Shown one piece after another: positions 2,218 to 43,999 of a DNA stretch of 43,999 bases. Position numbers and translations under genes: made by a program. Within the stretch, counting starts at the first letter, position 1, and the number at the start of each line of letters is the position of its first letter. Under the pieces are notes generated by a model. It was given only the letters and a program-made list of their open reading frames with translations, was not told the origin of the DNA and ran no database searches. The stretch is taken from the IMG/VR virus record IMGVR_UViG_3300037049_000072, positions 1 through 43,999 of that record; one strand, written 5' to 3'. The DNA comes from a virus.

Positions 2218-4253
2218 TATGGTCGTGCGGGTGGAAGTTTAACCGGTTCAGGTTTCGGCGGAAGTTTCGACGGGACAAATCCGGCCTTGGATTCCATCTG
2301 GCGTTTAATGTCCTCGGGCGCGTCTTTGTAGTTGATGGACAAACTTTCTTTCGACGCAGCATCTTCGGTTCCGGTCGCCGTTGGCGGCGCACCATTCCCG
2401 TTGACCGGCGGTTGTCCGTTTTGCTGCGGTGGCGCGCCGCCCATCGGCTGCTGTTCCATCTGCATCAACTGCTGCTCGATCTGTTTTGCCGCCGCCGGGT
2501 TCTGCTGCTTCAGAATCTGCAACCGTTGAACAAGGTTTTGATGAACACGCTGTTTGCCCAGCGGGTTGACCGGCACGCCCAGCTTGCCGGCGGCGTGCAT
2601 CCAGTCAATGATGCACTTGATGCGCGACGGCTGGTCCTGCTTCGGGTCAACGGTAACCGGGAACGGCGGCATGGCATTGAGAAGAAGAATCTCCATGGCC
2701 TGGTCCTCGTACTCGCTCGCGCCCTTCATGTTCGTTGGCGTGAAAGCCTTCAGCGCAATGCGGCCATCGTAGGCGTTGAGCGCGGCTTGCGTCAGCACCT
2801 CCATGTCCACGTTTGGATTTCCGGCGAATGCCTGAAGCGCGGCCATCGCCTTCTGAAACTTCAAAACCGGATTCCAGCCTTCAGGAGATCCGTCGGGAGT
2901 GATGAGGTACTGATCATGCAACGCCTGTTCGGGCAGCGTTCCAATCTGGCCGGCGGCGTAATACGCGAAGTCGCGCTGCTTGAACTGGACAATCAAACCC
3001 CAGCGATGCCGGTGCATCCGGGCGAGCACGCGGCGTTGAATTGAAGCCTGATAGTTACCGCCAGTTTGTTGCAGGGCGGCAATGCGGTCGTTCTCAGTCG
3101 CCGTGCGCGGCTTGCCGCCGTTGGTGTTCTGGCCCTCACTCGACGTAATACCGAAGTCGGGCGACTGCGCTTTTTCTTCGGCCATGCCGCGCGAAAGCAT
3201 CAGCATTTCAGAAAATGACATTGGCGGCGCGGACTGCTGTACACTGTGAATATTTCCCGGAATGTATTCGCCGGGCTGCCATCGGTAATTCGCCGCGTTG
3301 GTGATTTCCTTGTCACCCGAGTAAATCGGGCGGTTGGAGAACGTCATGTAATCCGCCCACTCGTTGACGATCTTGGTGGCGAATTGTTCATCGGGCGCCA
3401 ACAGTTCGCCCAGGCCGCGCACCGCATACCAACCCTTGTCTTTTTTCTCCATCGGAAAGGAGAAGAACGGAACGGATTCTTTGCCGCCGGTTTTAAACGG
3501 GTTGCCGTGCGGCTGGCGCAGTTCGATTTCCGGCGAGAGCGGCGAGTAATAACTGACCGTGTGTCCGCCCTGGGTTTTCTTCCAGTGTTCCCAAACCAAA
3601 ATCTGTTCCGTGTTGCTCGTGTAATTGATGCCCTCTTGCAATCGCTTTTGTTGGATGATGACGTTGATGTTCGCCGCCGGCTGGCCGCGAATTTTTTGAA
3701 TCGTCACGTCGTCTTTTTTCCAGCGTTGGTCAAGACGCATGTACTTAGCAACAGTGAACTGGCGAACGTGAACAAACTCGTCGGCATCCTCGAAATCGTC
3801 GGCTTCCTGCGGCATCAGAATGAAAAGCGGGTCAATGGCTTCGTCCTTGAGCGCGTAATCGTCGAGCGGGTCAACCGTGCATTTAATGACGCCCCGGCCT
3901 CGCAAGTAGCAGGTGTCGAATACACAGTCCATTTCGTCCATCAGCGTCGAGCGGTTGAACGTGAGAAAATCGTAAAAGTCGGCGGCGGCGTCGGATAGGG
4001 CTTCGACCTGCTGTTTGAGTGATACGAACTGGCACAGCCGATTGCCCGAGGTGAGTTGACCGACAAGGAACGGTTTGTTCTTGCGAATGGCGTTGTCAAT
4101 GACGGCAACGTGGCCATCGGCGGCGGACGGGAAGGGTTTGTTCGTTCGCGGCAATCCGTCATGCCGCATCGTGTAGAACGTGCGCTGTTTTTGTTCCCAA
4201 CGAAGCCGGGCCAGCAGCATTCGATTGGCGGATTCGTAAAGCGCCTTGCTCAT
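2217..4253 (-). CDS. Portal (head-tail connector) protein
   Basis: The 678-residue product has the length and layout of large podovirus portals. Features are an N-terminal helical region with 'FLTFNRSTLMDEMDCVFDTCYLRGRG', a central beta-rich part containing 'EYIPGN' and 'PDFGITSSEGQNTNGG', a long helical C-terminal domain and a Gln/Pro-rich tail (about 560-678). As a dodecamer it would form the DNA portal, docking with TerL. The start was set at the ATG overlapping the previous stop (ATGA) and not at an earlier methionine. It sits between the DHH phosphoesterase and the scaffold unit, as expected for a connector gene. Confidence 0.8.
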   Translation of the reverse strand: MSKALYESANRMLLARLRWEQKQRTFYTMRHDGLPRTNKPFPSAADGHVAVIDNAIRKNKPFLVGQLTSGNRLCQFVSLKQQVEALSDAAADFYDFLTFNRSTLMDEMDCVFDTCYLRGRGVIKCTVDPLDDYALKDEAIDPLFILMPQEADDFEDADEFVHVRQFTVAKYMRLDQRWKKDDVTIQKIRGQPAANINVIIQQKRLQEGINYTSNTEQILVWEHWKKTQGGHTVSYYSPLSPEIELRQPHGNPFKTGGKESVPFFSFPMEKKDKGWYAVRGLGELLAPDEQFATKIVNEWADYMTFSNRPIYSGDKEITNAANYRWQPGEYIPGNIHSVQQSAPPMSFSEMLMLSRGMAEEKAQSPDFGITSSEGQNTNGGKPRTATENDRIAALQQTGGNYQASIQRRVLARMHRHRWGLIVQFKQRDFAYYAAGQIGTLPEQALHDQYLITPDGSPEGWNPVLKFQKAMAALQAFAGNPNVDMEVLTQAALNAYDGRIALKAFTPTNMKGASEYEDQAMEILLLNAMPPFPVTVDPKQDQPSRIKCIIDWMHAAGKLGVPVNPLGKQRVHQNLVQRLQILKQQNPAAAKQIEQQLMQMEQQPMGGAPPQQNGQPPVNGNGAPPTATGTEDAASKESLSINYKDAPEDIKRQMESKAGFVPSKLPPKPEPVKLPPARP

Positions 4254-5317
4254 ACAAACGGAAGTACGATTGCCTGAAACCCGCACGCCCCACGATGCCC
4301 TCCGCCGCCATATTTGACAGCGATTTTAGACAGGTCAATTCCGGTGTTGTGCTTGGCGTGGTAAAGTGAAACCGACCACTTTTTTCCGCTGTAGTAAAAC
4401 CCCATCAGTGCATCATGGCCAGTTTCAGGAACGTCTTTGGCGGCAAACGTCAGCGAATTGCAACGTGCCGTAGTCAACGCGAGAAACTTCAAGCCTTCCC
4501 ATTCGACGATGAAGCTGCGTTCCATCATTCCGGCATCGTTGCGCTGTTGGTAGGTTTGAAGCATTTTTCCATCTGTGAGCAGACCCAAGACGAGTGTGTT
4601 GTATTTGTGAGGAATGGCTTGGTCTGGGCCAACATCGTCGGTCAAAAGGTGCGCCCATTTTTGGGGCGACAATTCCTGAGAGCGCAACCCAAATTGAAAC
4701 ACGTCGGCGTTGGGGTCGCGCTTGTCCCAGATGTCGTACTCGCCAGCGAGACGGACTGCGAGCGGTTCCTCGACTTTTCGATCAACGAAATCTTGCTTCG
4801 TGGCGAATGGATAATGCGTCTGAAACCATTCCCGTGACGGAGATTCACTTTGATGCCAGTACCTATTTTCGGCTGTAAAGTAAAACCACGCCAACCGGCA
4901 CGCTGCCACCCCGTCAATGCGGTAGCCGGGAATGTTTAACGGAGTCGGCGGTGGTGTGGTTCGCGTTTCGTGACCGCGCCTCCAAAACTCATTATATGGC
5001 ACATTGAAGCTGTCGCGCCCAGCCGGTTCGTGAACCCAACCTTCTTGCGGCTCGAAACTTTCTATGGAGCTTTTATGGTGGTCAATCCAGATGACGCGCT
5101 CTTTCAGTTCAGTCGGAAACGGGTCTTTGGGATATTGAAAACCAAATATCCGGTCAACCGGAAGGTCTAGGACGTATATTTTGCCATCAGGAATGGCAAG
5201 TGGTGGGTTTCCAAAATCCCACCCAATCAGTTCGGCGTCGGGAAGGAATTTGCGGGCGATTTCGCGGCAGAAAATGCCGTCGTAGTCGGCGCTGTGGTGT
5301 ATGACTGTAGTTTTCAT
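4250..5317 (-). CDS. DHH/DHHA1-family phosphoesterase
   Basis: The 355-residue protein shows the family's metal-binding motifs: 'HHSADYDG' (residues 7-14), an Asp after a hydrophobic strand in 'VLDLPVD' (51), 'IDHHKSS' (78-84), and 'GGGGHRG' near the C-terminus (337-343), the DHHA1 signature. Relatives hydrolyse short RNA or linear and cyclic dinucleotides (NrnA, GdpP types) with Mn2+. Its place between TerL and portal, one base after the TerL stop and overlapping the portal start, is unusual for a nucleotide-metabolism enzyme. It might recycle nanoRNA or remove a host signalling nucleotide. The fold assignment is firm; the substrate is unknown. Confidence 0.8.
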   Translation of the reverse strand: MKTTVIHHSADYDGIFCREIARKFLPDAELIGWDFGNPPLAIPDGKIYVLDLPVDRIFGFQYPKDPFPTELKERVIWIDHHKSSIESFEPQEGWVHEPAGRDSFNVPYNEFWRRGHETRTTPPPTPLNIPGYRIDGVAACRLAWFYFTAENRYWHQSESPSREWFQTHYPFATKQDFVDRKVEEPLAVRLAGEYDIWDKRDPNADVFQFGLRSQELSPQKWAHLLTDDVGPDQAIPHKYNTLVLGLLTDGKMLQTYQQRNDAGMMERSFIVEWEGLKFLALTTARCNSLTFAAKDVPETGHDALMGFYYSGKKWSVSLYHAKHNTGIDLSKIAVKYGGGGHRGACGFQAIVLPFV

Positions 5318-9434: not shown

Positions 9435-10532
9435 TCAGAATCCGCAAGGCCATTGTTGGACTCTTAAATCTGGACTCCACTCTGCCGGGTCGCCGCCTTT
9501 TTTGTCACGCAAATCAACGAGTGCGGTTTCGCCAGTGCGAGGTATCAGGTTCGTTCCAACCGGCCAACCATCGGGTGTCGCTTCATCAACTATCGGCCTT
9601 GCCCCCAACTGTTTTACGAAACAGGGACACCCACATTCATTGCAGTCTTGAACAATTGAACGAATCCAACTTACATCACACGGCCTCGCCTTTGGGCCCG
9701 ATTCTCCCCCCGCAATGCACCACTTAATTTTTTTGTCTTTGAATCCTTCCAGAGGTTCCAAAAATTGGTTGTCGAATCCAGCCTTGTCACGGTCGCTCAA
9801 AATGTAAGGCCCGACATTGACCGGCCCCAGCAGCGGCTCCAGCGACAGTCCCCGGCACGTTGCCGGTATCTTGAGCAGTTCCGGGATGCGCTTGTCGGCC
9901 TGCTCTTGGTTCTCGACGCTGGTTAGCAGGATGATGTTTGTCGGGGCAAAGCCATGAATCCACGAATGAACAAATGACGACCTTGAATGGTCAGTGATTC
10001 TTGCCGCAACAGCCTCAATCCTGGGGAAGAAATTCTCCGGCCTCTTGGTGCAGAGAATGTGAACCATCTGGTCACATTGACGAAGCGTGTCTAGGAAGTC
10101 CGCCAGCACCGCAATGGGGTCTAGTTTGTTTCCGTCTTGGTCAATTATTCCAGCGGGCATGTCGTCAAGCCAGTCAATGAGTGACGGGAACGAGCGGCGG
10201 CGATGGAACTTTGATCTGCATTTGCAGGTCGGGCCAGTGATATTCGCTGACGCATCGCCGCAATTGTCGCAAATAAATGGTCGCCTGTTCATCGCCAGCA
10301 TCTTCCCCTGGAATCCCCGCGTGAGGATTCGAGGAGCGGTCTTGCCCCATACTGGCCGCGTTTCCCAGTCCTTGAATCCCGCCGCTTTGAATGCCTTGCG
10401 CGCGATTGTTTTCAGTCGGTTTATCATCAGTTCGCGGCTATAACAATTGACACAGCCCGGACTGACCTCGGTGCAAATCAGCCACGGGCCAACCGTTGAA
10501 TCCGTCCATGCTATTTTTGTTTGTTCGCTCAT
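9435..10532 (-). CDS. Phage Gp37/Gp68-family protein (DUF5131)
   Basis: The 365-residue product begins MSEQTKIAWTDSTVGPWLIC with 'SPGCVNCYSRELM' (24-36), the IxWTDxTxxP and GCxxCY signature of the family. Two further CxxC pairs ('ICDNCGDASAN', 'GPTCKC') may bind zinc, and 'LSLEPLLGPVN' and 'IAGGESGPKARP' follow in the usual order. The family is widespread in phages and occurs in some bacteria; its Cys motif recalls metal-cluster enzymes but no reaction is established. It overlaps the winged-helix gene by ATGA. Length is typical. Confidence 0.85.
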   Translation of the reverse strand: MSEQTKIAWTDSTVGPWLICTEVSPGCVNCYSRELMINRLKTIARKAFKAAGFKDWETRPVWGKTAPRILTRGFQGKMLAMNRRPFICDNCGDASANITGPTCKCRSKFHRRRSFPSLIDWLDDMPAGIIDQDGNKLDPIAVLADFLDTLRQCDQMVHILCTKRPENFFPRIEAVAARITDHSRSSFVHSWIHGFAPTNIILLTSVENQEQADKRIPELLKIPATCRGLSLEPLLGPVNVGPYILSDRDKAGFDNQFLEPLEGFKDKKIKWCIAGGESGPKARPCDVSWIRSIVQDCNECGCPCFVKQLGARPIVDEATPDGWPVGTNLIPRTGETALVDLRDKKGGDPAEWSPDLRVQQWPCGF

Positions 10533-10774: not shown

Positions 10775-10974
10775 ATCGGCTTGAACTTTTTTAAAAACTC
10801 CACCCGGTTCCACCGCTCATTTATTCCGTCGGGGCACTGCACAACCACCATTCCGTTGTCTTCCAAGACCGTCACCGCGCCAAACAACTCGCCGCTATTC
10901 CACCGCCCGACAATTTTAGTCTGGCGACTGTCGTGACGAGCAATGAGTTTTTCGGCGAGCGGTGTCATAGTCAT
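10771..10974 (-). CDS. Hypothetical protein (67 aa)
   Basis: The product MTMTPLAEKLIARHDSRQTK... is small, with a beta-rich centre ('GAVTVLEDNGMVVVQC') and a basic C-terminus. Both ends share ATGA overlaps with neighbours (RusA upstream, winged helix downstream), which fixes the start. No family was recognised. Confidence 0.6.
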   Translation of the reverse strand: MTMTPLAEKLIARHDSRQTKIVGRWNSGELFGAVTVLEDNGMVVVQCPDGINERWNRVEFLKKFKPI

Positions 10975-11426
10975 TCCTCCATCGGCTCGCACAGGATGAT
11001 TTCAACGCCGGTCTGCTCGCCGGGGTTGGCGAATTTCTTTTCAGCCTGCAACACGACAACCTGGTCGTCGTCCTGCCACACTCCGATTGTTGTCAGACAA
11101 TCACAAACCGCTTTAGCCAAATTATCTGCGTCGGGCTTCTTGGAACACCAGCGCGGGGCGTCAGGCCGCAATCCCTTCTTGGTGAAGTGCGACTTTGGCC
11201 GCGGCATGAGAAACGTCAGAAATAGCGCGACGGGTCCGGTGATTATCGGCATTGCCGGTACGACGCCTTTCCACGTCTGCGCTATTTCAGACTTCCAACC
11301 TTCGGCGGTGCCGGCGTCGAACACGCGGGCCGAATAGCCGCCGCCTTTGAGCTTCATCGCAAAGGCGCGCGGTCGCGGCTGGCCCTTGGGCAGGCCGGCA
11401 ACAAACAGGGTGACGAGGGGAATCAT
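10971..11426 (-). CDS. rusA: RusA-type Holliday junction resolvase
   Basis: The 151-residue protein has the RusA pattern: 'GLPKGQPRPR' near the N-terminus, then 'KKPDADNLAKAVCDCL' (97-111) and 'WQDDDQVVVLQAEKKF' (117-132). The aspartates in PDADN and QDDDQ, plus D109, correspond to the acidic active site. It would cut four-way junctions made during phage recombination and replication, partnering the annealing protein and exonuclease coded upstream on the other side of the integron. Overlaps on both sides are ATGA. Length is normal. Confidence 0.88.
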   Translation of the reverse strand: MIPLVTLFVAGLPKGQPRPRAFAMKLKGGGYSARVFDAGTAEGWKSEIAQTWKGVVPAMPIITGPVALFLTFLMPRPKSHFTKKGLRPDAPRWCSKKPDADNLAKAVCDCLTTIGVWQDDDQVVVLQAEKKFANPGEQTGVEIILCEPMEE

Positions 11427-11839
11427 TTCGGTTTTTGCGCCGTGATTTTATCCTTCGGGCCGATGTGGCTTAATAAAAGGTTGATGCCTTTGACCTTGAT
11501 GCTTGTGCGTTTGGCTTTGCGCAGCGCCGCGATGAGTTTGCTTTCGGCTTTGCCCTTTTCTTCGGCCGCGGTGTCACACGCGACGATGCAGTCAGCCATT
11601 GCATTCGCGGCTTTGCCAACTCCGTCGAGCGGAGGAATGAGCGCGGTCGCTTCGGCTTGTTTTAGTTTTCCGCCAGATTCCCCGCCGGACTTGATGGCAA
11701 CTCGCGCACCGCTTTCGGTCGCGGCTTGCACCTCTTCTCCGGATTTGCGTTTGGGAATTGTCCCGCCGTTCATGGCCTTTTCGAGTTCCTTCAAGTCGGC
11801 TTTGGCTTTGGATGGTTGATTAACTTTTGGTTTTTTCAT
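11423..11839 (-). CDS. Lys/Ala-rich hypothetical protein (138 aa)
   Basis: The protein has a basic disordered first half (MKKPKVNQPSKAKADLKELE, about 1-60), then 'ADCIVACDTAAEEKGKAESKLIAALRKAKRTSIKVKG', a helix-strand pair seen in small phage proteins near resolvase genes. The function is unknown. It is the first phage gene read after the integron; its leader contains two strong hairpins. Confidence 0.65.
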   Translation of the reverse strand: MKKPKVNQPSKAKADLKELEKAMNGGTIPKRKSGEEVQAATESGARVAIKSGGESGGKLKQAEATALIPPLDGVGKAANAMADCIVACDTAAEEKGKAESKLIAALRKAKRTSIKVKGINLLLSHIGPKDKITAQKPK

Positions 11840-12018: not shown

Positions 12019-12279
12019 TCATAAATCCAATGGGCTTTTGATTCGTTTCTCGACGGGAGAAATCACGTGGTTGTAAATCATGGTGGTTTCCACACGGGTA
12101 TGTCCCATCAGATGGGGATCACGCTTGCCCGACCAGATGACGAACTGGAGCACCCAAGAAATGTAACAATCCACCGTGCGCCGAGAAAAGTGGTGCAAGG
12201 TCAAAAACGCGCGGAATTCGTCCCGCAACCGCGGCGACTTTGCCTTTGCTGGTAAGAATGTTTTTAGTGCGGTGTTCAC
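12019..12279 (-). pseudogene. intI: Internally deleted integron integrase
   Basis: The 86-residue open frame joins two ends of an integron-type tyrosine recombinase. Residues about 14-53 ('LRDEFRAFLTLHHFSRRTVD' then 'SWVLQFVIWSGKRDP') are the N-terminal SAM-like domain of IntI. Residues 55-86 ('LMGHTRVETTMIYNHV' to 'SPLDL') are the IntI C-terminus with the Tyr nucleophile. Roughly 230 residues, including the catalytic Arg, Lys and HxxR motifs and the IntI-specific insertion, are missing at the PH-LMGH joint. The frame is intact, so a short protein could still be made. It starts with GTG. It cannot recombine alone; an assembly collapse is a possible alternative. Confidence 0.85.
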
Positions 12280-12293
12280 TTTGTAGAATAACT

Positions 12294-12300
12294 GTTAGAA
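12294..12300 (+). other. attI-like core site
   Basis: GTTAGAA fits the GTTRRR recombination core and lies 15 bases from the intI start, where attI is expected. On the minus strand the same bases (TTCTAAC) hold the stop codon of the first cassette gene. The flanking attI arms are not recognisable, so the site is inferred mainly from position. Confidence 0.55.
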
Positions 12301-12690
12301 CATCTGGTCATTATCTTCATCGAAGTCAGGTTCGTCCCAATCGTCCTCATAGTCGTATTGTGGACGGTTACGATGCGCCCGATCCTCGACTGCTTTGACG
12401 AGCGCCATTTCTTCGGGTGTCCGCTCGGATTCGGGTTTGCCCAGGATGTCGCGGTGGCGGTAGCGGATGCTTTCGAGAGTTGATTTGTCGCTCAACGCCC
12501 GCTCCACGTTACATTTTGCGGTCTGGTATTGTTTGACCGCTTTGTCTGCGAGTCGTGCCGCCGTTTTGCGGAGCGCGTCAACGGACTCGGCTGTTGTCGC
12601 CTCGGTCGAGGTTAAGCAGACCTCGAAGTGACAGTAGTCGTATGAGCGCATGACCTTCACGCTCCCTGATTGGATGTTTGGTGTTGTCAT
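12295..12690 (-). CDS. Cassette 1: phage-type conserved protein (131 aa)
   Basis: The product begins MTTPNIQSGSVKVMRSYDYC and continues 'HFEVCLTSTEATTAESVDAL', then 'RKTAARLADKAVKQYQTAK', a pattern I recognise from uncharacterised phage proteins; the C-terminus is acidic ('YEDDWDEPDFDEDNDQMF'). It occupies the attI-proximal slot and its TAA stop is inside the attI core. The gene may have been a phage gene caught between attI and the first attC. The ATG lies ten bases from attC A; a TTG start inside attC A is the alternative. Confidence 0.7.
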   Translation of the reverse strand: MTTPNIQSGSVKVMRSYDYCHFEVCLTSTEATTAESVDALRKTAARLADKAVKQYQTAKCNVERALSDKSTLESIRYRHRDILGKPESERTPEEMALVKAVEDRAHRNRPQYDYEDDWDEPDFDEDNDQMF

Positions 12691-12699
12691 TTGACGATG

Positions 12700-12772
12700 T
12701 TCTAACAATTCGATGCAGACCAACAGCCACTGCCCTTTGGAGTTGGCTGCATCATTTTTGAGTTTGTTCGGG
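12700..12772 (+). other. attC site A
   Basis: The left core is TTCTAAC and the right core GTTCGGG. The arms GATGCAGACCAAC (12712-12724) and GTTGGCTGCATC (12742-12753) are complementary except for one extrahelical A on the left. The AACAATTCG opening resembles well-known resistance-cassette attC sites. It is the shortest site of the array, about 73 bp. Confidence 0.75.
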
Positions 12773-12783
12773 CAGTTTGCATT

Positions 12784-13086
12784 TCAAAGTTTCGCACGGT
12801 GGCTGTGGCTGATCTCACCGTTGGGCAGCTTTGAGAGAGCGTGTTTTGCTTCGTTGGATGCCCATTCGAGCGCCTTTTCCACGCCGACAGTGTGCCCGTA
12901 GTCTGCGCCATCGTAGCGGTCGCGGCAGTCTCGGTCTTCGACTCCACAGTGGAGTCCTTTTTGCCAGTCGCCGGTTGCGTCTATATCGGGCGCGTCGGTG
13001 CAGTTTGCTATTCGCGTGAGTGCCCCGACAAGCTGCCCAACAAGGCGCTGGAGACAATCGGCGTTGGACGTTTCATTTTTATTCAT
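12784..13086 (-). CDS. Cassette 2: hypothetical protein with attC-encoded N-terminus (100 aa)
   Basis: The gene starts at an ATG in the loop of attC B, so its first 17 or so residues (MNKNETSNADCLQRLVG) are the minus-strand reading of the attC left arm. The body contains 'GDWQKGLHCGVEDRDCRDRY' and 'YGHTVGVEKALEWASNEAKH', with paired Cys and acidic residues but no known motif. It ends 12 bases before the right core of attC A, so it fills its cassette in reverse orientation. The function is unknown. Confidence 0.6.
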   Translation of the reverse strand: MNKNETSNADCLQRLVGQLVGALTRIANCTDAPDIDATGDWQKGLHCGVEDRDCRDRYDGADYGHTVGVEKALEWASNEAKHALSKLPNGEISHSHRAKL

Positions 13087-13146
13087 AAAAGGTTTCTGGT
13101 TGCTGGACATCGCAGGTCGCCGATGTCTCAGCTTGGTATGTTAGGA
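13035..13146 (+). other. attC site B
   Basis: The cores are GCCCAAC and GTTAGGA. The left arm GCTGGAGACAATCGGCG (13047-13063) pairs with CGCCGATGTCTCAGC (13118-13132) once one G and one A on the left arm are left unpaired, the two-extrahelical-base pattern that sets attC polarity. The 54-base loop carries a minus-strand start codon and closely resembles the loop of attC C. Confidence 0.92.
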
Positions 13147-13158
13147 GGCTTTTGCATT

Positions 13159-13362
13159 TTATAGGTTGTAATCTTCGGCGCGGACTTCTGCCTCCCAAAA
13201 GTCGTTGTCGGATGGGAACTGGTTTCGCACATAAGCGTCTGCATTTTCTCGGTAGAGATATGTGGTGTTCGTGCGCTCAAAGTCATAGGGCGTGTTTTTG
13301 CGTCTCAACCACACCCGATATTTGGTCGTCGGTTGGCCGGCGAACATCTCCACGTCATTCAT
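13159..13362 (-). CDS. Cassette 3: hypothetical protein (67 aa)
   Basis: The product MNDVEMFAGQPTTKYRVWLR... is rich in aromatic and charged residues and ends 'WEAEVRAEDYNL'. Its ATG overlaps the TGA of a 20-residue leader coded inside attC C, so translation is probably coupled to it. No family recognised. It lies wholly between attC B and attC C, antiparallel to attC polarity. Confidence 0.6.
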   Translation of the reverse strand: MNDVEMFAGQPTTKYRVWLRRKNTPYDFERTNTTYLYRENADAYVRNQFPSDNDFWEAEVRAEDYNL

Positions 13363-13421
13363 CGAAGCCTCCCAACAACGCGCTTCAGGCAACGTCGGTT
13401 GGCCGTCTCAGTTTTGCTCAT
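13359..13421 (-). CDS. attC C leader peptide (20 aa)
   Basis: The frame MSKTETANRRCLKRVVGRLR is the minus-strand reading of the attC C loop, left arm and left core. Its ATG overlaps the TGA of the cassette 4 gene, and its own TGA overlaps the ATG of the cassette 3 gene, so ribosomes could pass from one cassette to the next. It resembles the N-terminus of the cassette 2 protein (MNKNETSNADCLQRLVG), showing that both leaders come from related attC sites. Confidence 0.5.
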   Translation of the reverse strand: MSKTETANRRCLKRVVGRLR

Positions 13422-13478
13422 AAGGTTTCTGGTTTGCTCAAGCCGTCATTCCGACGTGCCTGAGCTTGATCGTTCAGC
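13370..13478 (+). other. attC site C
   Basis: The cores are TCCCAAC and GTTCAGC. The left arm GCTTCAGGCAACGTCGG (13382-13398) pairs with CCGACGTGCCTGAGC (13451-13465), with one T and one A of the left arm unpaired. Length is 109 bp. The loop carries the start codon of the minus-strand leader and is similar to that of site B. Confidence 0.92.
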
Positions 13479-13768
13479 ATACCGGCGAGAGCCTTGAGTT
13501 CTTCGGCCCATGCAAGCAGTTGTTCCCGCGTCAGGTATCCACAGAAGTAGTTATCACAGCCTTCTTCGACGCAGAATGTTCCGTCATCTTCTTTGGACAC
13601 GCTCACGATTCGATTGTCTGCCAGCGCTTTCGATATTGTTTTGTATTCGAGCGGTTCTTTTCCATAGGCGTTGCAGTCCACGAGGTATGCCGAACAAGCC
13701 GTCGCAGCCAACGTGCCTTGCGCCTCCGGTTTGGTCACGGCATCTGGTTTTTCAGAGTCAGATTTCAT
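13418..13768 (-). CDS. Cassette 4: acidic hypothetical protein (116 aa)
   Basis: The start lies in the loop of attC D (MKSDSEKPDAVTKPEAQGTL), so the first ~25 residues are attC-derived. The body has 'YKTISKALADNRIVSVSKED', 'CVEEGCDNYFCGYLTREQLL' and a helical end. Three Cys in the middle could bind metal. The C-terminus reads through attC C and its TGA overlaps the leader start there. Function unknown. Confidence 0.6.
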   Translation of the reverse strand: MKSDSEKPDAVTKPEAQGTLAATACSAYLVDCNAYGKEPLEYKTISKALADNRIVSVSKEDDGTFCVEEGCDNYFCGYLTREQLLAWAEELKALAGMLNDQAQARRNDGLSKPETL

Positions 13769-13818
13769 ATTTTTAGATTCAGGTTTTCGGCGGCACGTTG
13801 CTGGACTTTTCGTTCGGC
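13689..13818 (+). other. attC site D
   Basis: The cores GCCGAAC and GTTCGGC are perfectly complementary. The left arm GTCGCAGCCAACGTGCC (13701-13717) pairs with GGCACGTTGCTGGAC (13792-13806), leaving one G and one C of the left arm unpaired. Length is 130 bp. The long loop carries the start of the cassette 4 gene on the minus strand. Confidence 0.92.
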
Positions 13819-13819
13819 A

Positions 13820-14110
13820 TCATTTGTAGAAGCTGATGGTGTTGGTTGTTAGTTTGGCGGCGTAGTGGTTCGTGATGGTTTTCCACTGCGCATCCGTCAC
13901 GCGAACGATTACGCTTCCTTCCATTTGCACATACACCAGATTTGTGATGGTCAGGAAGTTCGTTCCCGGATTCCATTTTATCGTGTAGGCATCGAGATTG
14001 GTTAGATACAGGCTTGCCGGATTGGCTTTCCAGTCTTTAGCCTTGATGCCGAACAACGCGCTGCAAGAAACAGCCACTACGACTACCAGTTTTCGGATGG
14101 TCATTTTCAT
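13820..14110 (-). CDS. Cassette 5: predicted secreted protein (96 aa)
   Basis: The product starts MKMTIRKLVVVVAVSCSALF and continues GIKAKDW, a Sec signal peptide with a probable cut after IKA. The signal peptide is coded by the loop and left arm of attC E read on the minus strand. The mature part is Thr/Asn-rich ('LTNLDAYTIKWNPGTNFLTI'), like many secreted verrucomicrobial proteins. The stop lies two bases from the right core of attC D. GTG at 14119 and ATG at 14104 are alternative starts. Confidence 0.65.
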   Translation of the reverse strand: MKMTIRKLVVVVAVSCSALFGIKAKDWKANPASLYLTNLDAYTIKWNPGTNFLTITNLVYVQMEGSVIVRVTDAQWKTITNHYAAKLTTNTISFYK

Positions 14111-14182
14111 TTTAATCACTTTCGGTTTTGCCCAAGTCCAGCCGCGTTCGTCGTGGCTGTTCCTGAGCTTGATTCGTTAGGG
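14048..14182 (+). other. attC site E
   Basis: The cores are GCCGAAC and GTTAGGG. The left arm GCTGCAAGAAACAGCCAC (14060-14077) pairs with GTGGCTGTTCCTGAGC (14153-14168) with two unpaired left-arm bases and one mismatch. Length is 135 bp. On the minus strand the left arm encodes 'VAVSCSALFG', part of a signal peptide. Confidence 0.88.
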
Positions 14183-14215
14183 AGCTTGAGCTTTTGAGAC
14201 TCAAGCCCCCGTTGG

Positions 14216-14464
14216 TCATGTTGTTTTCGTGGCGGCTTTGGCACGTTCGATTTCGTTGACACAATCCGTCACGTCGTCGGCTCGCATACATTCCTTGAGG
14301 TCTGGACACGGATCGTTTGCGGTTGTGATTGCGATTTTGCCGTTGCAGTCGTTATTGCCGGCCACAGCATCATAGAGGATGCCCGCCACTGGCGGACGCC
14401 ACTGGTTGCCGAGCAGCACCACCTTATCGCCGTTCTTTGCTTCTCTGCCGTTTTTATAGTGCAT
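14216..14464 (-). CDS. Cassette 6: conserved hypothetical protein (82 aa)
   Basis: The product begins MHYKNGREAKNGDKVVLLGN and has 'GILYDAVAGNNDCNGKIAIT' and 'PDLKECMRADDVTDCV'. This small beta-barrel-like pattern (MxYxNGREAKNGD...G.LYD...GN) is one I recognise from short hypothetical proteins in environmental bacteria; no function is known. The ATG overlaps a possible leader frame from attC F (ATGCACTATAA). It ends 34 bases from the right core of attC E. Confidence 0.7.
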   Translation of the reverse strand: MHYKNGREAKNGDKVVLLGNQWRPPVAGILYDAVAGNNDCNGKIAITTANDPCPDLKECMRADDVTDCVNEIERAKAATKTT

Positions 14465-14477
14465 GGTATTTGACGCT

Positions 14478-14588
14478 CCCTAACCAGTTGCTGAAAACAA
14501 CGGCGGGAGTCCCCGCAGTTTCCAGATTCGATTTGCAGTCGAAAGTCATTTCTTAATCGCCGCTGTGGCTTAGCGCCCATCGTTCGTC
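14478..14588 (+). other. attC site F
   Basis: The cores are CCCTAAC and GTTCGTC. The arms GCTGAAAACAACGGCG (14490-14505) and CGCCGCTGTGGCTTAGC (14558-14574) pair only in part, so this is the least regular site after A and G. Spacing from its neighbours and position after a gene start support it. Length is 111 bp. Confidence 0.7.
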
Positions 14589-15034
14589 GGAAACGCTCGC
14601 TCGCCCGCCGCGGGACGAGCGCCGGGCTGCAAGGCGGCATCAAGATCGCGGGCGCATTGAGAAAAAACCGATGCGTATGCCGGAGCCACTTCCGCAAGAA
14701 TTGATTCGGGGTAAAGTCTTGCGTGTTCCTCCCATATTTGTTGTTCGGATTTCCAGATTTCTACCAGCGCCCGGGCCGCTTTTTCCGACGAATGAGCCAA
14801 GCTATCAGCGGGTTGGTTCACCTTGGCTTCGGTGCTTACCTGTGGCTCACCACGCTCGACCGCGAGCGTTCCCGACGAACCGCCCGCTGAAGGCAGACAC
14901 CGCTGCGCGGCTGCGCTCCGCTTGCTTTTACGAAAGACAAGCAGCATGGTCATCAATAGGAGAAATCCACTTGCAATCATTGTTTGAGTATTCATAGCTT
15001 GTCTTTCGTAAAAGTGCTGCTTAGCTTGGCTCAT
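14570..15034 (-). CDS. Cassette 7: membrane-anchored hypothetical protein (154 aa)
   Basis: The frame begins in attC G (MSQAKQHFYERQAMNTQTMI). Residues about 19-34 ('MIASGFLLLMTMLLVF') form a transmembrane helix followed by a basic 'RKSKR' stop-transfer segment; a polar helical domain lies beyond, probably with a type III-like topology. An alternative ATG at 14995 gives a cleaner membrane anchor and sits in the loop of a perfect 18-bp inverted repeat. The end reads through the right arm of attC F (PTNDGR). Function unknown. Confidence 0.55.
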   Translation of the reverse strand: MSQAKQHFYERQAMNTQTMIASGFLLLMTMLLVFRKSKRSAAAQRCLPSAGGSSGTLAVERGEPQVSTEAKVNQPADSLAHSSEKAARALVEIWKSEQQIWEEHARLYPESILAEVAPAYASVFSQCARDLDAALQPGARPAAGERAFPTNDGR

Positions 15035-15039
15035 TCGGC
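14874..15039 (+). other. attC site G, long and degenerate
   Basis: The left core is GACGAAC; the right core is ATTCGGC where GTT is expected. GCTGAAGGCAGACAC (14886-14900) pairs with GTGCTGCTTAGC (15014-15025) if three left-arm bases bulge out. At 166 bp it is the longest site, and a perfect 18-bp inverted repeat (14925-14942 and 14997-15014) makes a second stem inside its loop. The G-to-A change at the cleavage triplet may make this site inactive. Confidence 0.65.
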
Positions 15040-15356
15040 ACTATATGCGTGCGCTCGTAGTAGAGTTCGGTTTCGCGCCACGAGCCGTGCGGATACAGAT
15101 CGCCATGCCGCGCCAAGAAATCGTTCCACGCCTTGTCTGCTTCTTCTGCGGTGATGTTGTGTTCCTTGCTCATCGCTTCCCAATAGAGCCAGTTAAGATA
15201 GTGGCTATCGCTTCCGGCGCGTGGTCGCCAGTTGCGACGACATCCAGCCTCCATGACAAGCCGATACCTGCGAAGTGCCGAACAAGGCGCTGCACCCGCA
15301 ATGACTACCGCGTTTACGGTTTCAGGCGAGGTGGACGGTTTGGGCGCGGTAGTCAT
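15021..15356 (-). CDS. Cassette 8: hypothetical protein (111 aa)
   Basis: The gene starts with an ATG in the right arm of attC H, so the first ~28 residues (MTTAPKPSTSPETVNAVVIA...) are attC-derived. The body contains 'SHYLNWLYWEAMSKEHNITA' and 'EEADKAWNDFLARHGDLYPH', a compact helical and aromatic-rich segment without a recognised motif. It ends with TAA in the right arm of attC G and overlaps the cassette 7 start by 14 bases. Function unknown. Confidence 0.55.
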   Translation of the reverse strand: MTTAPKPSTSPETVNAVVIAGAAPCSALRRYRLVMEAGCRRNWRPRAGSDSHYLNWLYWEAMSKEHNITAEEADKAWNDFLARHGDLYPHGSWRETELYYERTHIVPNEPS

Positions 15357-15377
15357 GGGGTGAGCTTTTCGTTAGGC
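15277..15377 (+). other. attC site H
   Basis: The cores are GCCGAAC and GTTAGGC (perfect GTTRRRY). The left arm GCTGCACCCGCAATGACTAC (from 15289) pairs with GTAGTCATGGGGTGAGC (ending 15365), with a G, a G and an A unpaired on the left. The 'AACAAGGCGCTGCA' opening is typical of environmental integron cassettes. Length is 101 bp. Confidence 0.93.
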
Positions 15378-15380
15378 CAC

Positions 15381-15638
15381 TTATGCACGCTGCCAGAGCC
15401 ATTTCAGTTTTCCGTGTTCTCGCTCCACGAGAATTTGGCCGCATTTGCATACTCCAATCCGGCGATTTTCAACCGGCCAGAAAAGAGACCGGTCAGCGTA
15501 GTGCAGTGTCGCAAGGCATTCGATTTCAGAGCCGCAGCTTTTGCAGTGGTAGTGTCCGCGTGCCCACGATGGTTTTGGCGGGTCACGATAGATGATTTGT
15601 GGTTCAGGTGTTTTTTGTTTCATGTTTTTTGCTTTCAT
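15381..15638 (-). CDS. Cassette 9: zinc-ribbon protein (85 aa)
   Basis: The product MKAKNMKQKTPEPQIIYRDP... has 'YHCKSCGSEIEC' (about 30-41) and 'GVCKCG' (about 62-67), two Cys pairs that would form a zinc ribbon. Such small proteins may bind nucleic acid, but nothing more specific can be said. It lies between attC H and attC I and ends four bases from the right core of H. A leader frame from attC I overlaps its start. The second Met (residue 6) is an alternative start. Confidence 0.6.
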   Translation of the reverse strand: MKAKNMKQKTPEPQIIYRDPPKPSWARGHYHCKSCGSEIECLATLHYADRSLFWPVENRRIGVCKCGQILVEREHGKLKWLWQRA

Positions 15639-15738
15639 AAATTGTTACCAGCATCCTAACAAAGCGCTGGAGCCAATCGGCATTGCCCTTTGCCGTTTCC
15701 GGCGTCGCTGGTGTCAGGATGTTTGGTTTGTCGTTCAC
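15604..15738 (-). CDS. attC I leader peptide (44 aa, GTG start)
   Basis: A frame starting with GTG in the loop of attC I reads VNDKPNILTPATPETAKGNA, then DWLQRFVRML, and ends shortly after the cassette 9 start. The 'NADWLQRFV' part matches 'NADCLQRLV' at attC B, because both are minus-strand readings of the conserved attC left arm. It could lead ribosomes into cassette 9. Translation is not proven. Confidence 0.35.
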   Translation of the reverse strand: MNDKPNILTPATPETAKGNADWLQRFVRMLVTIYESKKHETKNT

Positions 15739-15779
15739 GGTTTCTTACGATGCCGATGGCTCAGCTTTTTTCGTTAAAC
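15654..15779 (+). other. attC site I (array end)
   Basis: The cores are TCCTAAC and GTTAAAC (perfect GTTRRRY). The left arm GCTGGAGCCAATCGGCAT (15666-15683) pairs fully with ATGCCGATGGCTCAGC (15750-15765) except for one G and one A on the left. Length is 126 bp. The right core contains the stop codon (TAA on the minus strand) of the adjacent phage gene, so the array ends exactly at a phage gene boundary. Confidence 0.94.
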
Positions 15780-16655
15780 CTCAATTGCAACTTTTCCACA
15801 AGTCCTTACTCCAGAGTTCAACTTCTTGGTCGCATTGATACCCTTCAGTGTGCGGCCGCTGTTCAAGTGGATTTTGATTTGCGCCATGATGATGGGCAGT
15901 TTTTCCCAATTAACACAGTCTGGATTACAGCGGGCAAATTCGATGGGGTTGGTGACAATAATATCCCAGTCCTCAGACACGCGCTGGCCGCTGGCCCTGG
16001 TGCTCGACACCGGACGAGACTCGATGTAGCTGGCTTCGGCGGCTTTTTCTTCGACCTTTTCGGCAGCTTGGGCCGATTGCAAAGCGGCAGCGGAAGCCTC
16101 CTGCTGTAGCTTGACGGCTTCCAATCGCGCTTTCTCAGCAATGGCAGCCTCCTTCTTGTTGCGAGCCGCGTTGGCCATGCTGGCGGCTGCCTCGGCGGCT
16201 TCCCGGGCCTCTTGTTCAACGCGGGCCTGCTCGTCGGCAATGCGCTTCAATTCCGCCTGTTTATCACGCTCGATGCGGTCCAGTTCCTCTTGCTGTTTGC
16301 GCTGCTCTTCGGCCACACGGCGGCGCTCCTTAATCTGGAAATCGGACACAAGGCAGGAAATGCGGCCGTATTCCTGTTCAACTTCCAGCACGGACTTTTC
16401 CTTTAGCCGCATCAAAGAGCGGCTGTATTCCAGCGCCGGCTCGTTAAGGCGCACGCGCTCCTTTTCGATCAGCCGAGAAAATTCTTTGAGGGATTTTTGG
16501 GCCTGGACGGCGGCGTTGTTTTCCTCGGAGTTTTCCACCTTGCCGATCAAGGCGGCGGACTGAAGGGCCAGTTCGCGCAATTCAACCGCGGACTGGTTTA
16601 GCGTTGGTTCGAGGAAGTCCGGCTTCGGCGAGAGAATGAGGGAAGTTTCGCTCAT
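15774..16655 (-). CDS. Long coiled-coil phage protein (recombination-region type)
   Basis: The 293-residue product has a helical N-terminus ('LRELALQSAALIGKVENSEE'), a long Ala/Glu/Lys/Arg coiled coil (about 100-215) and a C-terminal domain 'EDWDIIVTNPIEFARCNPDC ... SGRTLKGINA' shared by phage proteins coded near annealing proteins and exonucleases. It may be an accessory to recombination; this is inferred from context. The start at the ATGA overlap with the exonuclease stop was preferred over an earlier Met. Its stop codon lies in the right core of attC I, so integron insertion left the end of the gene just intact or slightly altered. Confidence 0.7.
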   Translation of the reverse strand: MSETSLILSPKPDFLEPTLNQSAVELRELALQSAALIGKVENSEENNAAVQAQKSLKEFSRLIEKERVRLNEPALEYSRSLMRLKEKSVLEVEQEYGRISCLVSDFQIKERRRVAEEQRKQQEELDRIERDKQAELKRIADEQARVEQEAREAAEAAASMANAARNKKEAAIAEKARLEAVKLQQEASAAALQSAQAAEKVEEKAAEASYIESRPVSSTRASGQRVSEDWDIIVTNPIEFARCNPDCVNWEKLPIIMAQIKIHLNSGRTLKGINATKKLNSGVRTCGKVAIEV

Positions 16656-17227
16656 GCCTTCCTCGCTTTCAGCCAGAAGTAAATCTCCTTGCACGCGCGC
16701 AGATCCGCCATCGCGTCATGCGCTCCCACCAGCGGCTTGCCGATGTGCTGGCAGGCTTCGCTCAGATTGGGCCATTTGAATTTGCCCTCGAACTTTCCCG
16801 GCAGTCTGCAAATGTCCGTCATCTGACGCATCGTGCAAAACGTCGGCATCGCCTTCCACGCGACATCATCCTCGTCGGTGATAAGTTCAAACCGGCGCAT
16901 GGCAATGCGGGCGATGAACTTGTCGAACTGGATGTTGTGGCCGACCAGCAGTTGAGACTTGCGAATCATGGCCAGCAGGATTTCAGCGGCGTGTTTTTCG
17001 GCGATGCCGATGGCGGCGATTTCGTCCGTGATTTTATGAACGTCGCTGGCTTCCTTTGGAATCTTCCAGCCATCGGGTTTGATGAGCACGTTATGCTCTT
17101 CGAGCGCGCCGCCCAGGTCGTCAGTGAGAATCGCGGCCATCTGCACCATGTGCGGCTGTGACGGGTCGCGGGCGCGCTTGTTGAAGTCGGCAAGGCCGGT
17201 GGTTTCACAATCAAGAAACAGAAGCAT
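16652..17227 (-). CDS. DnaQ-like 3'-5' exonuclease (DEDDh)
   Basis: The 191-residue protein has all three exonuclease motifs: 'LDCETTG' (Asp6, Glu8), 'VGHNIQFDKF' (Asp102) and 'GAHDAMADLRAC' (His170, Asp175). It would remove nucleotides from 3' ends in proofreading, repair or recombination with the annealing protein upstream. A strong AAAGGAAAAA Shine-Dalgarno precedes the ATG. The HNH frame overlaps its start by 17 bases. Length is normal for a free-standing epsilon-like domain. Confidence 0.88.
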   Translation of the reverse strand: MLLFLDCETTGLADFNKRARDPSQPHMVQMAAILTDDLGGALEEHNVLIKPDGWKIPKEASDVHKITDEIAAIGIAEKHAAEILLAMIRKSQLLVGHNIQFDKFIARIAMRRFELITDEDDVAWKAMPTFCTMRQMTDICRLPGKFEGKFKWPNLSEACQHIGKPLVGAHDAMADLRACKEIYFWLKARKA

Positions 17228-20113: not shown

Positions 20114-23100
20114 ATTTCGGCATCCGGCTGAAAGCCGCTCCCAACGCCTGCCGATCTCGCATCGCTTCCTGATACGTCGTCCGTAGTTCAGGTTGCGCGG
20201 CGAGCATTTGCTGGTCGCGGGCCTGGCTTCCGGTGAATGGCCGGGCAGCAACACCGTTCTGGTTGGTGGATTTGTAGCGGCTGGCAATCGCGGCCGGCCT
20301 GCGGCCTTCTTGAATGAGCGCCTGATATTCCTTTTGAGCGGCGTCCATCTTGCCGGCCAGCAAGAGATTGTCCAATCCACGGTAAGCACTTTCAGTTTTC
20401 GCCTCGGCATCCCGCTCCTTCTGGTAAAGGTTGGCTTTCGGGTCCGGACTGTTTCGATTGAACTTGCTGGCGGCATCCCACATTTGAGTTTGCGCGGTGT
20501 ATTGCCGGCTGCTCAATCCAACCTGTGCGGACGCCAGCGAGCCAAGCGGCGTTTCTCCCCGTTTGGCCGCGCCAGGCAGCAATCCAGTTGTTCCGATGGG
20601 GGCCAGCCAGCCAGCGGCATCTCGAAGCGCAATCTCCGTTGCTCGTGCCGGCGCAAACTTCGTCCAGGTGTTGATGTTCGCGCCTGTCCGCATGTCCCGG
20701 CCGGTCATGGACTCAATGCCGATTTTCGGGAGCGGCCCGAGCCGGCCGGCCGCAAAGCCGGGGAAGTTGGAAACCAATCCAAACAGGTCGGCAACTACGG
20801 ACCGGATTGAATACCGCCTGCCGTTATAAATCACCGACAGGGCGTTTTCCGGTTCCCAATGCGAATTACCATTGTTGAGCGCGGCGTTGATGACGCGTGC
20901 CGCCGAATACATGACGGCGGTCTGGATGATGATTGCCCGGCGCTGGGCGCCGCCGTATTTCGTCAAAGCCTGACCACCCATTTTCAACTCGCTCGAAAGG
21001 AAGTCCGGCGCGAGACAGGCCAGCCGGTTCAAGTCCATCAAAACCTTGTTGCTGCCCAGGAGCCGGTAATTCTGTAAACCAAAGGCGGCGTTGGCCTGAT
21101 GCGCGGACAGCTCGGAAATCTGGTCGGGCGTCAGTTGCTTGCCGTATCTCGCCTCGTTGCCATCACGCAGCGCAAGGTAATTTTTCATCTTCATGGCCGG
21201 GATTGCCTGCTTGAAAATGAAGTCGGTCATCGCGTTTGAAAGCTGGCCCAGGCCGGGAACATGAGACCACAAGCCGCCGTGTGCCCCTGATTGCCCCTCC
21301 TGAAACTCGACTTGATGGCTTCCAAATCCCAGTTCCAGCCCGTTGCGCACACCGTCCGCCTGCTTAGGATCGAGCAGGTCAAGTCTGAATCCGCTGGTGA
21401 TGGGATTGACGCCGTTCCAAACCGAGTGCGTCCCGACGTTGACCAGGTGAAACATCCCCATCGCCATTTTCGAGTTTTTTAGGAAGGACGACACTTTCAA
21501 GGCAGTGTTTCCAATCGCTCCGACTGTCGTCCTGTGCATCTCGACGGTGGATTGTCCGTTGCGCATGACAACGGTGGGTTTCGCCTGCCGCCACTGCGCG
21601 CCGTTGAGTTCATTGTTGAGTTTGTCGTAAATTTCCGGGTGAACCCAGAAGTCGCCTTTGACGAGAATGGGCGAACCGGCTTCCGTGCTGCCCTGATACG
21701 TCCAGCCCTTGAGCGCCCAATGGTCAAGATATTTGTACGGCACGCCTTGCGCCGTCACAGCGCCCGGAGGCCGCGAGTGCGAGTCCACCAGCAGTTGCCG
21801 CTTGCCGCTTTCGAGCGGCAGGAATTGAGCGCCGCCGCCGATCTTGACGCATGGCATCTTGTCGCTGGCTTCGGCGTCCTTCAAATTCCAGATCACCGCC
21901 CGGCTGGTGATGTTCTTGTGGAACGCCTGGTTGTAGGCGTCCACCAGCGGCATGACATCGAGCGTTCGAGGCTCGCCACCGTGCATGATGCCCTCAAAGT
22001 AGCTGGGCACGGTGCGTTGCAGCGCGAAGAACGGGTCGCGCGGGTCGAGCTTGGCGCGCCAGTTGGCCGCCGACTTTCCGCCGCCCATGCCGGTTGTTTC
22101 ATCAGGGGGCATCGTCGGGTATTTGTTCCAGAGCTGGGGTACACCGTAATTTTTCCGGCCCTTGTCGAGAATCCCGACGTTCTTTGAATCTTCCAACTTG
22201 GTTTCAAACTCGCTGCGAATGGAGTTGGCAATCTGCTTTTCCGTGTCGGTCAGCTTCAAGGCCGCGTCCCACACCTTCAAATGCTGCCGGGCCGACGGCA
22301 CGCCCTGCAGATCGGCCCGCTGGGCGCGAATCTCATCCTCGTCGCCATTGGCGTCCAGCCAGACCGACAAGGCCGCGCGCCGGGTTGGGTCGGGCATTTT
22401 CTCCTTCATGCGCTGCGTCCAGTCGTAACCCTCCTGTCCGGTGAAATTGTCGGCATAACCCCATTCTTTGATAATCCGGCGGTAATCGTCGTCAATCGGC
22501 GGCTTGATCATCGAGTCGCGGAGCGTTTCCCAGCCAGCAGCCGCAACGCGGCCCGTGGCGGAAACGGCGTCTTTTGCGCCCCGCACAAGTTGCGCCGCAC
22601 GGTCGCTCAACCGCAATCTGTCCATGAGTGGCACCTTGGGGCTGTCAATCTTCGCCGTGCGGAGCCAGTCAGTGAGATTGGAGAGTGAGCGGCCCGGCGG
22701 CAGTTCAACCGACTTGGGCAACTTGCCTTCCTCCTGCATCCGGTTCCAGACTTGGGTGAAGGTTCGGCTGGGCATCTGGGCAAACTCGTCGTGGAAAGAT
22801 TCAGCATGAGCGCGGGCCTGTGCCAGCTTCTCAGGGTCGCCGACGGCTTTGGCGGCTTCAAGTTGTTTCAGCGCATCGGAGTAGCGATTGATTGTGTCCT
22901 CGATGTAAGCCGGGTGCCGACGCAACGCTTCCCCGGCTTCGCGCGCCTGCATATCAGCGGCGCGACGCTCGGCCTGCATTTCGGGCGTCACGTTCTTGCT
23001 GGTGACGGACTTGGCCGCGTTGAGGGCTTCGTAAGCCTTCTGGCGTCGTTCGTTGGCGGCGTCGGCATCGGATTTAAGGGAGGTGAAGGGTTTTTCTTCG

Positions 23101-43027: not shown

Positions 43028-43999
43028 TTATACGAACGAGCTTTTCGAGCGCAGGACAACCACATGCGGGAAGTCCGTCGTTTCGTTCGTCCACAACAGG
43101 CCGGCCTGATAGAAGGCTTTCCAGGCGAACATCGTCTTTTGGTTCGCCGGGTCGGACTTGTCGGGCTTGTCCAGTACGATGAGCGACGGGGCGCGCGGAT
43201 CGGAACCGGCGCGCATACCGCTCAACTTCGGCACTCCAAACGCCTCGGCCCCGAGGTAGATATTGGAGTAGATGTTGGTCGAACAATCATCCGTCAACGA
43301 TGGCGAGTAACTGCCGTAAGTTCCGGCCTGCTCGATGAACGGCGATTGCGCTTCGATGAAGTCGCAGCCGTCCAGCGTGAACTCAACCCACTGGTCAATG
43401 CCGATCTTGGGCGTGTTGTTGAACACCGCTGTGTTGACCCAGGTCTGGTCCTGCCGCAAATCGCCCATGACTTCGGGGGCGATGATGGCCTTGAACTTCC
43501 CGTTGATCATCGGGATGCCGGGTTTGCCGTTGATGCCGCGCATGCGGGTCATCGCGCCTAGATGCACCGGGCGGGTGAGGCGCGCCGCCGCATTGCCGAG
43601 GGCCGCCAATGCGGCAAAGTCGGCTGCACTGTTCAGCGTGTTGGGCACGCCGGCAAAACGTTCGTAAGACGTGTTGCTGCCATACATGGTGGTCTGGCCG
43701 GCCGGGATGGGATTCGGAGTGCCATCCGCATCGGCGGCCCCGGCCTGGGAACAAATCGCGTGCGAACACACGAAATCGAAGTCCAGTGCTGCATCCGAGC
43801 CCATCGTCTTGCTGTTGACCGCCAGCGTGTCGAACAGGTCAATCGCCCGGACAATATCCGATACGCTCGACACGTCGCCGCGCTGCTGGAGCATGATGTC
43901 CACGTAACCAATGGCCGCGCCTGGAGATTCCGGTGTCAGCGGAGTTCCGTCGGTCGTGTACTGGCCGGTGGTCATAGATCCAGCCGACAGACGGCGCGG
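43028..43999 (-). CDS. Major capsid protein, N4-gp56-like (C-terminal part)
   Basis: This part codes residues 70-392 of the capsid protein whose start lies at 334 near the left end. 'GYVDIMLQQRGDVSSVSDIV' and 'FKAIIAPEVMGDLRQDQTWV' correspond to the conserved '..V.QYGD.V.ISDV' and '..HP.V..DLR.D..W' segments of the N4-gp56 family, and 'YLGAEAFGVPKLSG' and 'FAWKAFYQAGLLW' follow in the usual places near the C-terminus. The length (392) is normal. The gene is followed by a signal-peptide gene after 47 bases. Confidence 0.85.
   Translation of the reverse strand, partial: PRRLSAGSMTTGQYTTDGTPLTPESPGAAIGYVDIMLQQRGDVSSVSDIVRAIDLFDTLAVNSKTMGSDAALDFDFVCSHAICSQAGAADADGTPNPIPAGQTTMYGSNTSYERFAGVPNTLNSAADFAALAALGNAAARLTRPVHLGAMTRMRGINGKPGIPMINGKFKAIIAPEVMGDLRQDQTWVNTAVFNNTPKIGIDQWVEFTLDGCDFIEAQSPFIEQAGTYGSYSPSLTDDCSTNIYSNIYLGAEAFGVPKLSGMRAGSDPRAPSLIVLDKPDKSDPANQKTMFAWKAFYQAGLLWTNETTDFPHVVVLRSKSSFV
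43873..43999. repeat. Terminal direct repeat, right copy
   Basis: Exact copy of bases 1-127. Together with the continuous capsid frame across the join, it shows that the map is circular. Confidence 0.95.

Follow-up and report, generated by a model that had tools for sequence, protein, structure and literature searches.

In the usual view, integrons are platforms by which bacteria capture genes, with cassettes made for reading from the integron promoter, and in the standard bacterial array a gene and its attC site read in the same direction. Phage integrons as such are not new: Qi et al. 2023 (PMC9892861) report three complete integrons, one In0 and 17 clusters of attC sites lacking integron integrases (CALINs) in phages, as well as recombination of phage attC sites with attI1 in E. 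coli. Here we examine IMG/VR virus record IMGVR_UViG_3300037049_000072 (43,999 bases, the whole record, hereafter the window), a tailed phage in which an array of attC sites adjoins a remnant of an integron integrase (IntI) gene and the cassette genes are oriented against their attC sites. Probably, in our view, an integron resident in phages has partly decayed at this locus; in such an integron intI lies along phage transcription and the antiparallel cassettes would be read through. What we provisionally take to be new is an intact phage IntI clade near head and packaging genes, a putative attI abutting the intI start, and antiparallel cassettes: we found none of these reported in the accessible part of PMC9892861, and a literature search largely without subscription papers and preprints yielded no paper on a clade of phage IntIs or on cassettes in antiparallel orientation.

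The attC sites were assessed with a covariance model (R1), a substitute for the IntegronFinder attC model, trained on 20 attC sites from bacterial integrons only (window excluded). Its alignment comprised full-length attC sites under a hand-written structure (a trimmed 50-nt version was dropped, its L' columns being misaligned), in which 14 of 20 pairs change on both sides, a covariation that none of 500 shuffles equalled. Over the whole 44 kb, R1 returned eight matches, all on the plus strand and all inside the region where the initial annotation (made from the letters alone) had claimed nine attC sites. The coordinates of that claim were right, and most of the sites pass the covariance-model check that it had proposed (7 of 9 at E <= 5e-5). 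The seven strong ones (26-48 bits, E 5e-5 to 1e-10 over 44 kb), all on the plus strand, are attC1 (12700-12826, 33.8 bits, E 6e-7), attC2 (13035-13146, 38.4 bits, E 4e-8), attC3 (13370-13479, 35.8 bits, E 2e-7), attC4 (13689-13818, 48.1 bits, E 1e-10), attC5 (14048-14182, 26.4 bits, E 5e-5), attC8 (15277-15377, 35.2 bits, E 3e-7) and attC9 (15654-15779, 38.1 bits, E 5e-8). Also on the plus strand, attC6 (14478-14588) scores weakly (12.2 bits; E 0.2 over 44 kb, 0.024 over 5 kb), and attC7 (about 14874-15039) is degenerate, with a partial match of 5.4 bits over 14885-15030 (seen with filters off over 5 kb) and an R' core that, read directly, is ATTCGGC and not GTT. The sites are spaced at about 320-450 bp, and R' of attC9 overlaps the stop codon of the neighbouring phage gene. 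R1 found no attC elsewhere in the window and no match at E <= 1 in 412,803 bases from 26 other phage loci; a separate arm-and-core scan gave six sites scoring at least 45 in the array, with none reaching 44 when that region was shuffled 40 times and none across the remaining 40 kb. An Rfam search at gathering thresholds returned no match in the window, Rfam presumably being without a usable attC model. Bacterial attC sites carry extra bases on the left arm, and the window sites, as the annotation had observed, do likewise; because of these left-arm bases and of the plus-strand model matches (minus-strand scores at the array reach at most 6.2 bits), their orientation is read as plus. By its predicted sites the window carries an attC array (seven strong, one weak, one degenerate) and, with at least two attC sites and no functional intI, a CALIN. 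Around cassette 7 (14582-15037) we also observed several inverted repeats of 16-19 nt, including a reversed part-copy of attC7, a possible rearrangement.

The intI remnant that had been proposed beside the array proved genuine: an open reading frame of 86 residues (12019-12279, minus strand) has a PF13495 match, aligns to intact phage IntIs, and matches TIGR02249 or its relatives (integron integrase families) at both ends. An N-terminal SAM-like domain (about the first 60 IntI residues) is joined in frame to the last 29 residues, so that the tyrosine box is kept, and about 240 central residues, with most of the catalytic ones, are gone. Although its length does not allow placement in a tree, the remnant is 47-52% identical at its N-terminus to members of the phage clade described below. 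The window yielded no full tyrosine integrase domain and is predicted to lack the intact IntI, extra domain included, of a functional integron. Directly before the intI start codon, at 12280-12300, lies an attI-like motif, read on the minus strand as (Y)AACAGTTATTCYACAANRTGAA, with a correctly oriented core of the G|TTA type (G|TTAGAA, crossover after 12294). Close forms of it stand at the intact intI starts of two viral contigs (L151 and L070), the pattern is present in only three other viral contigs, and we read it as a putative attI. A further viral locus (L284, 3380-3520) has two attI-like motifs and a start codon with no intI, probably reflecting a fully deleted phage intI.

Coding strands in the array were scored with a codon model trained on the other genes of the window phage. 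All nine cassettes score as coding on the minus strand, that is, opposite to attC and in the same direction as intI and the phage genes (scores given as minus against plus strand): cassette 1 (12295-12690; 21.7 against 3.1), cassette 2 (12784-13110; 10.2 against -0.5, its first or an internal ATG lying within attC2), cassette 3 (13159-13392; 17.0 against -11.0), cassette 4 (13418-13768; 16.0 against -3.8), cassette 5 (13820-14119; 21.7 against -2.3), cassette 6 (14216-14464; 17.2 against -7.1), the probable genes of cassette 7 (14570-15034; 7.6 against -1.1) and cassette 8 (15021-15356, true start possibly downstream; 6.0 against -4.5), and cassette 9 (15381-15638, a Cys-rich protein of 85 residues; 4.6 against -9.8). 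The stop codons of the cassette 1 gene and of the flanking gene at 15774 coincide with the crossover triplet, which fits genes that terminate where the cassette does; none of the cassette proteins matched Pfam above cut-off. The predicted cassette genes are antiparallel, and not, as in a functional integron, parallel to attC, and a Pc promoter would face their antisense strand. The annotation's "full integron layout" describes the array and the intI remnant correctly and misses the main anomaly, the antiparallel genes.

That the array lies inside a tailed-phage genome, as had been stated, is sustained by the record itself. A perfect direct terminal repeat of 127 bp (1-127, identical with 43873-43999) closes it, and indicates a complete circular phage genome of about 43.9 kb; closure is further supported by a related contig (L002), where the scaffold-like and capsid-like genes that occupy opposite ends of the record stand side by side. 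Almost all long genes are on the minus strand, and PHROG searches matched TerL (phrog_2, E 2e-14) and TerS (phrog_309, E 2e-46), so that by its predicted terminase and packaging module the window is a tailed phage. The annotation had also listed portal, scaffold and capsid alongside TerL; these three have no match in Pfam or PHROG, and their names rest on conserved gene order and on homologues in relatives. A chimera of integron and phage sequence is disfavoured, as the genome closes circularly through its repeat and a relative has intI at its packaging module.

Intact IntI genes were identified in four viral contigs (L066, L069, L070 and L151), of which the first three score 318-356 bits against TIGR02249 (cut-off 265 bits) and the last lies above the cut-off. 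In L066, L069 and L151 intI lies upstream of terminase, and in L070 upstream of the major head protein gene. The four form one clade (support 0.999-1.0) among 142 sequences, the remainder being 138 other viral and bacterial IntIs, and the clade holds after the addition of 20 Verrucomicrobiota IntIs; its members are 53-76% identical to the L066 IntI, versus about 50% for the best bacterial matches. Moreover, L002, which belongs to the phage family of the window (TerL 48%, portal-like protein 55%, capsid-like protein 70%), starts within a C-terminal IntI fragment, 90% identical to that of the window and directly upstream of the packaging genes; L001, of the same family, has no IntI fragment upstream of its packaging genes. 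Since this placement of intI recurs in phage contigs, we regard it as a recurrent phage trait and not as a single accident. On a broader scale, 62 IMG/VR viral loci (e.g. L161, L203, L207, L222 and L235) have a gene resembling IntI along 240 residues or more, often in a contig with a terminase, and a search of 50,697 deposited phage records gave IntI matches at E <= 1e-20 in only nine (several being cases of Qi et al. 2023). Integron integrases thus look far commoner in IMG/VR than in deposited phage genomes, and the annotation's remark that phage integrons are very rare was only partly right, given these loci and the phage integrons and CALINs presented in PMC9892861.

Orientation was compared between phage and bacterial arrays upstream of intI by a model-free test on open reading frame (ORF) length, because self-trained single-locus codon models gave unreliable strands in some high-GC loci. 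Bacterial arrays had 20 parallel and 5 antiparallel cassettes, and viral arrays 8 parallel and 24 antiparallel (Fisher p = 5e-5); counted by locus, the parallel/antiparallel ratio was 10/0 in bacteria and 3/10 in viruses (Fisher p = 4e-4), and a Verrucomicrobiota control of two arrays gave 12 parallel and 3 antiparallel cassettes. Furthermore, the attC sites found by covariance model near intI in 18 viral loci face the other way from intI or from the phage genes, and antiparallel arrays also occur where no full intI was detected (L037, L051 and L059). On the other side of the integrase, Virus Rctr41k (L407, KX853513; 4680-9434) has a gene annotated xerD that is related to IntI and is followed downstream by three attC matches. 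Its cassette genes are parallel to attC, which, in a downstream array, again makes intI and cassette genes co-directional, and it is apparently an unrecognised phage integron.

Cassette 6 of the window encodes a common free-standing phage protein, to which relatives were found in 142 viral loci (up to 86% identity), and no oriented attC lay alongside its homologues in the 79 loci checked; because of this distribution we interpret it as a phage gene turned cassette in the window phage. The same protein had no match in the phage and plasmid collections. The suggestion in the initial annotation that particles carry host cassettes between hosts is not substantiated: the genes face the wrong way for a bacterial integron promoter, cassette 6, the only one whose family could be traced, is a common phage gene, and the intI is broken. 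In L066 and L069, clear DNA methyltransferase genes (Pfam and PHROG matches) are on the strand antiparallel to attC, and antiparallel-strand matches in L049, L222, L229 and L059 comprise methyltransferase, MT-A70, DUF5131, PAPS-reductase and RNA-ligase families, the methyltransferases among other phage cassettes being of the N6/N4, MT-A70 and D12 types. An exact repeat of 601 bp inside the cassette array of L203 (640-2266) suggests a recent cassette duplication. A DUF5131 gene was also observed in the phage backbone of the window (9435-10532), the same family being a cassette gene in L222 and L175.

With regard to the surroundings of the array, it is flanked on one side by a phage gene of 138 residues (11423-11839, minus strand), then RusA (10971-11426; PF05866, E 2e-21), and on the other by a gene of 306 residues (15774-16694, minus strand), an ORF on the phage strand with a weak PHROG match only. 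The window further contains an exonuclease gene (Pfam match), a DHH phosphoesterase-like gene between the terminase and portal-like genes (4250-5317), and an ARAGORN tRNA-Thr call (22996-23069) that is opposite in strand to a 2274-residue ORF and probably false. The capsid-like protein had no relative in 388 Verrucomicrobiota genomes, in a search without positive control.

We envisage that intact relatives possess an IntI gene of the phage's own, oriented along phage transcription and immediately preceded by attI, and that IntI would insert circular cassettes there through folded single-stranded attC sites. The array would grow upstream of intI with attC pointing against phage transcription, and for this reason the cassettes retained would be those whose gene is antiparallel to attC; all cassette genes could then be read through from upstream phage promoters, making Pc unnecessary. 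The cargo would be phage accessory genes (in relatives including DNA methyltransferases and other likely anti-restriction functions), and the array would serve as an exchangeable store of them. In the window phage, about 240 codons have been lost in frame, and most of the IntI catalytic domain with them; with intI dead, the array would be frozen or moved by an IntI acting in trans.

Several observations weigh against this scheme. The window IntI, as predicted from its deletion, cannot be active, one attC is degenerate and one weak, and we infer recombination and expression of the array from sequence. The self-trained codon score of L066 did not favour the plus strand in 2 of 3 intervals, although homology does; in viral arrays downstream of intI the strand measures conflict (18/0 parallel by codon model, 4/6 by ORF length); and in the isolated phage TJE1 the genes and the one attC site run in parallel, so that not every phage follows the antiparallel pattern. 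Finally, the strand-consistent look of viral contigs may in part be an effect of selection in IMG/VR. Pressed further, this last point would make the whole antiparallel pattern a product of ascertainment, with some viral loci being misclassified bacterial integrons. Viral callers rely on strand consistency, and several IntI-bearing contigs are short and have no terminase match. Yet the phage genome in the window is complete, L066, L069, L203, L207, L164 and others have terminase matches and are antiparallel all the same, and clade members share attI and intI position, which leaves this explanation unlikely in our view.

We give still less credence to a one-off capture of a bacterial chromosomal integron fragment, as in Vibrio anguillarum phages, without phage-specific adaptation. 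Such captures are documented in PMC9892861 and the broken intI of the window would suit one, but phage IntIs form their own clade at the identities given above, independent phage contigs repeat the placement of attI and intI, the cassette genes are antiparallel (unlike those of bacterial arrays), and cassette 6 is of a phage gene family. A miscalled coding strand, with the true genes parallel to attC, could be read from overlapping plus-strand ORFs in some cassettes and from the low scores of cassettes 7-9; as all nine score higher on the minus strand, and as homologues fix the strand of cassette 6 and homology that of genes in other phage arrays, we find it scarcely tenable. A reading of the sites as terminators, or as hairpins of another kind separating small phage genes, has in its favour that intergenic hairpins are common and that attC sites are thought to be weak terminators (PMC9892861). 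It is nevertheless refuted for seven of the nine sites and next to negligible overall, given that RYYYAAC and GTTRRRY cores are both present, extra bases fall mostly in one arm, E-values reach 1e-10 where 413 kb of control DNA from phages gave no match, and the sites adjoin an intI remnant.

A phage-resident integron with antiparallel cassettes hence remains our preferred account of the window. Beyond it, we incline, by a narrow preference, to the wider proposition that tailed phages keep integron lineages of their own and a separate antiparallel cassette pool, suited to phage transcription, of phage accessory and anti-restriction genes, for the most part split from the bacterial pool by orientation. 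If true, gene capture by attC recombination would be an adaptation strategy of the phages themselves, probably for the swapping of counter-defence genes, and the flipped orientation would be a simple sequence signature that separates phage from bacterial cassettes, limits exchange between them and is directly testable in existing metagenomes.

Set beside the known systems, the window resembles the phages of Qi et al. 2023 (PMC9892861) in having an attC array, with or without intI, in a tailed phage, and methyltransferase cassettes, here seen in other phage loci, are shared as well; the complete cases there are, however, bacterial-type integrons in temperate phages, and the cassettes of TJE1 and PH101 are said to run in the usual bacterial direction. 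Sedentary chromosomal integrons share with it the attC structure, an array upstream of intI and the orientation of attC relative to intI, whereas their genes are parallel to attC and those of the window antiparallel. Virus Rctr41k is likewise a phage with an IntI-like gene and three attC matches, but its array is downstream of intI and its attC sites are parallel to the genes. In the inverted-integrase integrons (Spartobacteria L116), intI and cassette genes are co-directional, as in the window; there, the array lies downstream with parallel genes, whereas in the window it lies upstream and the genes are flipped within their cassettes.

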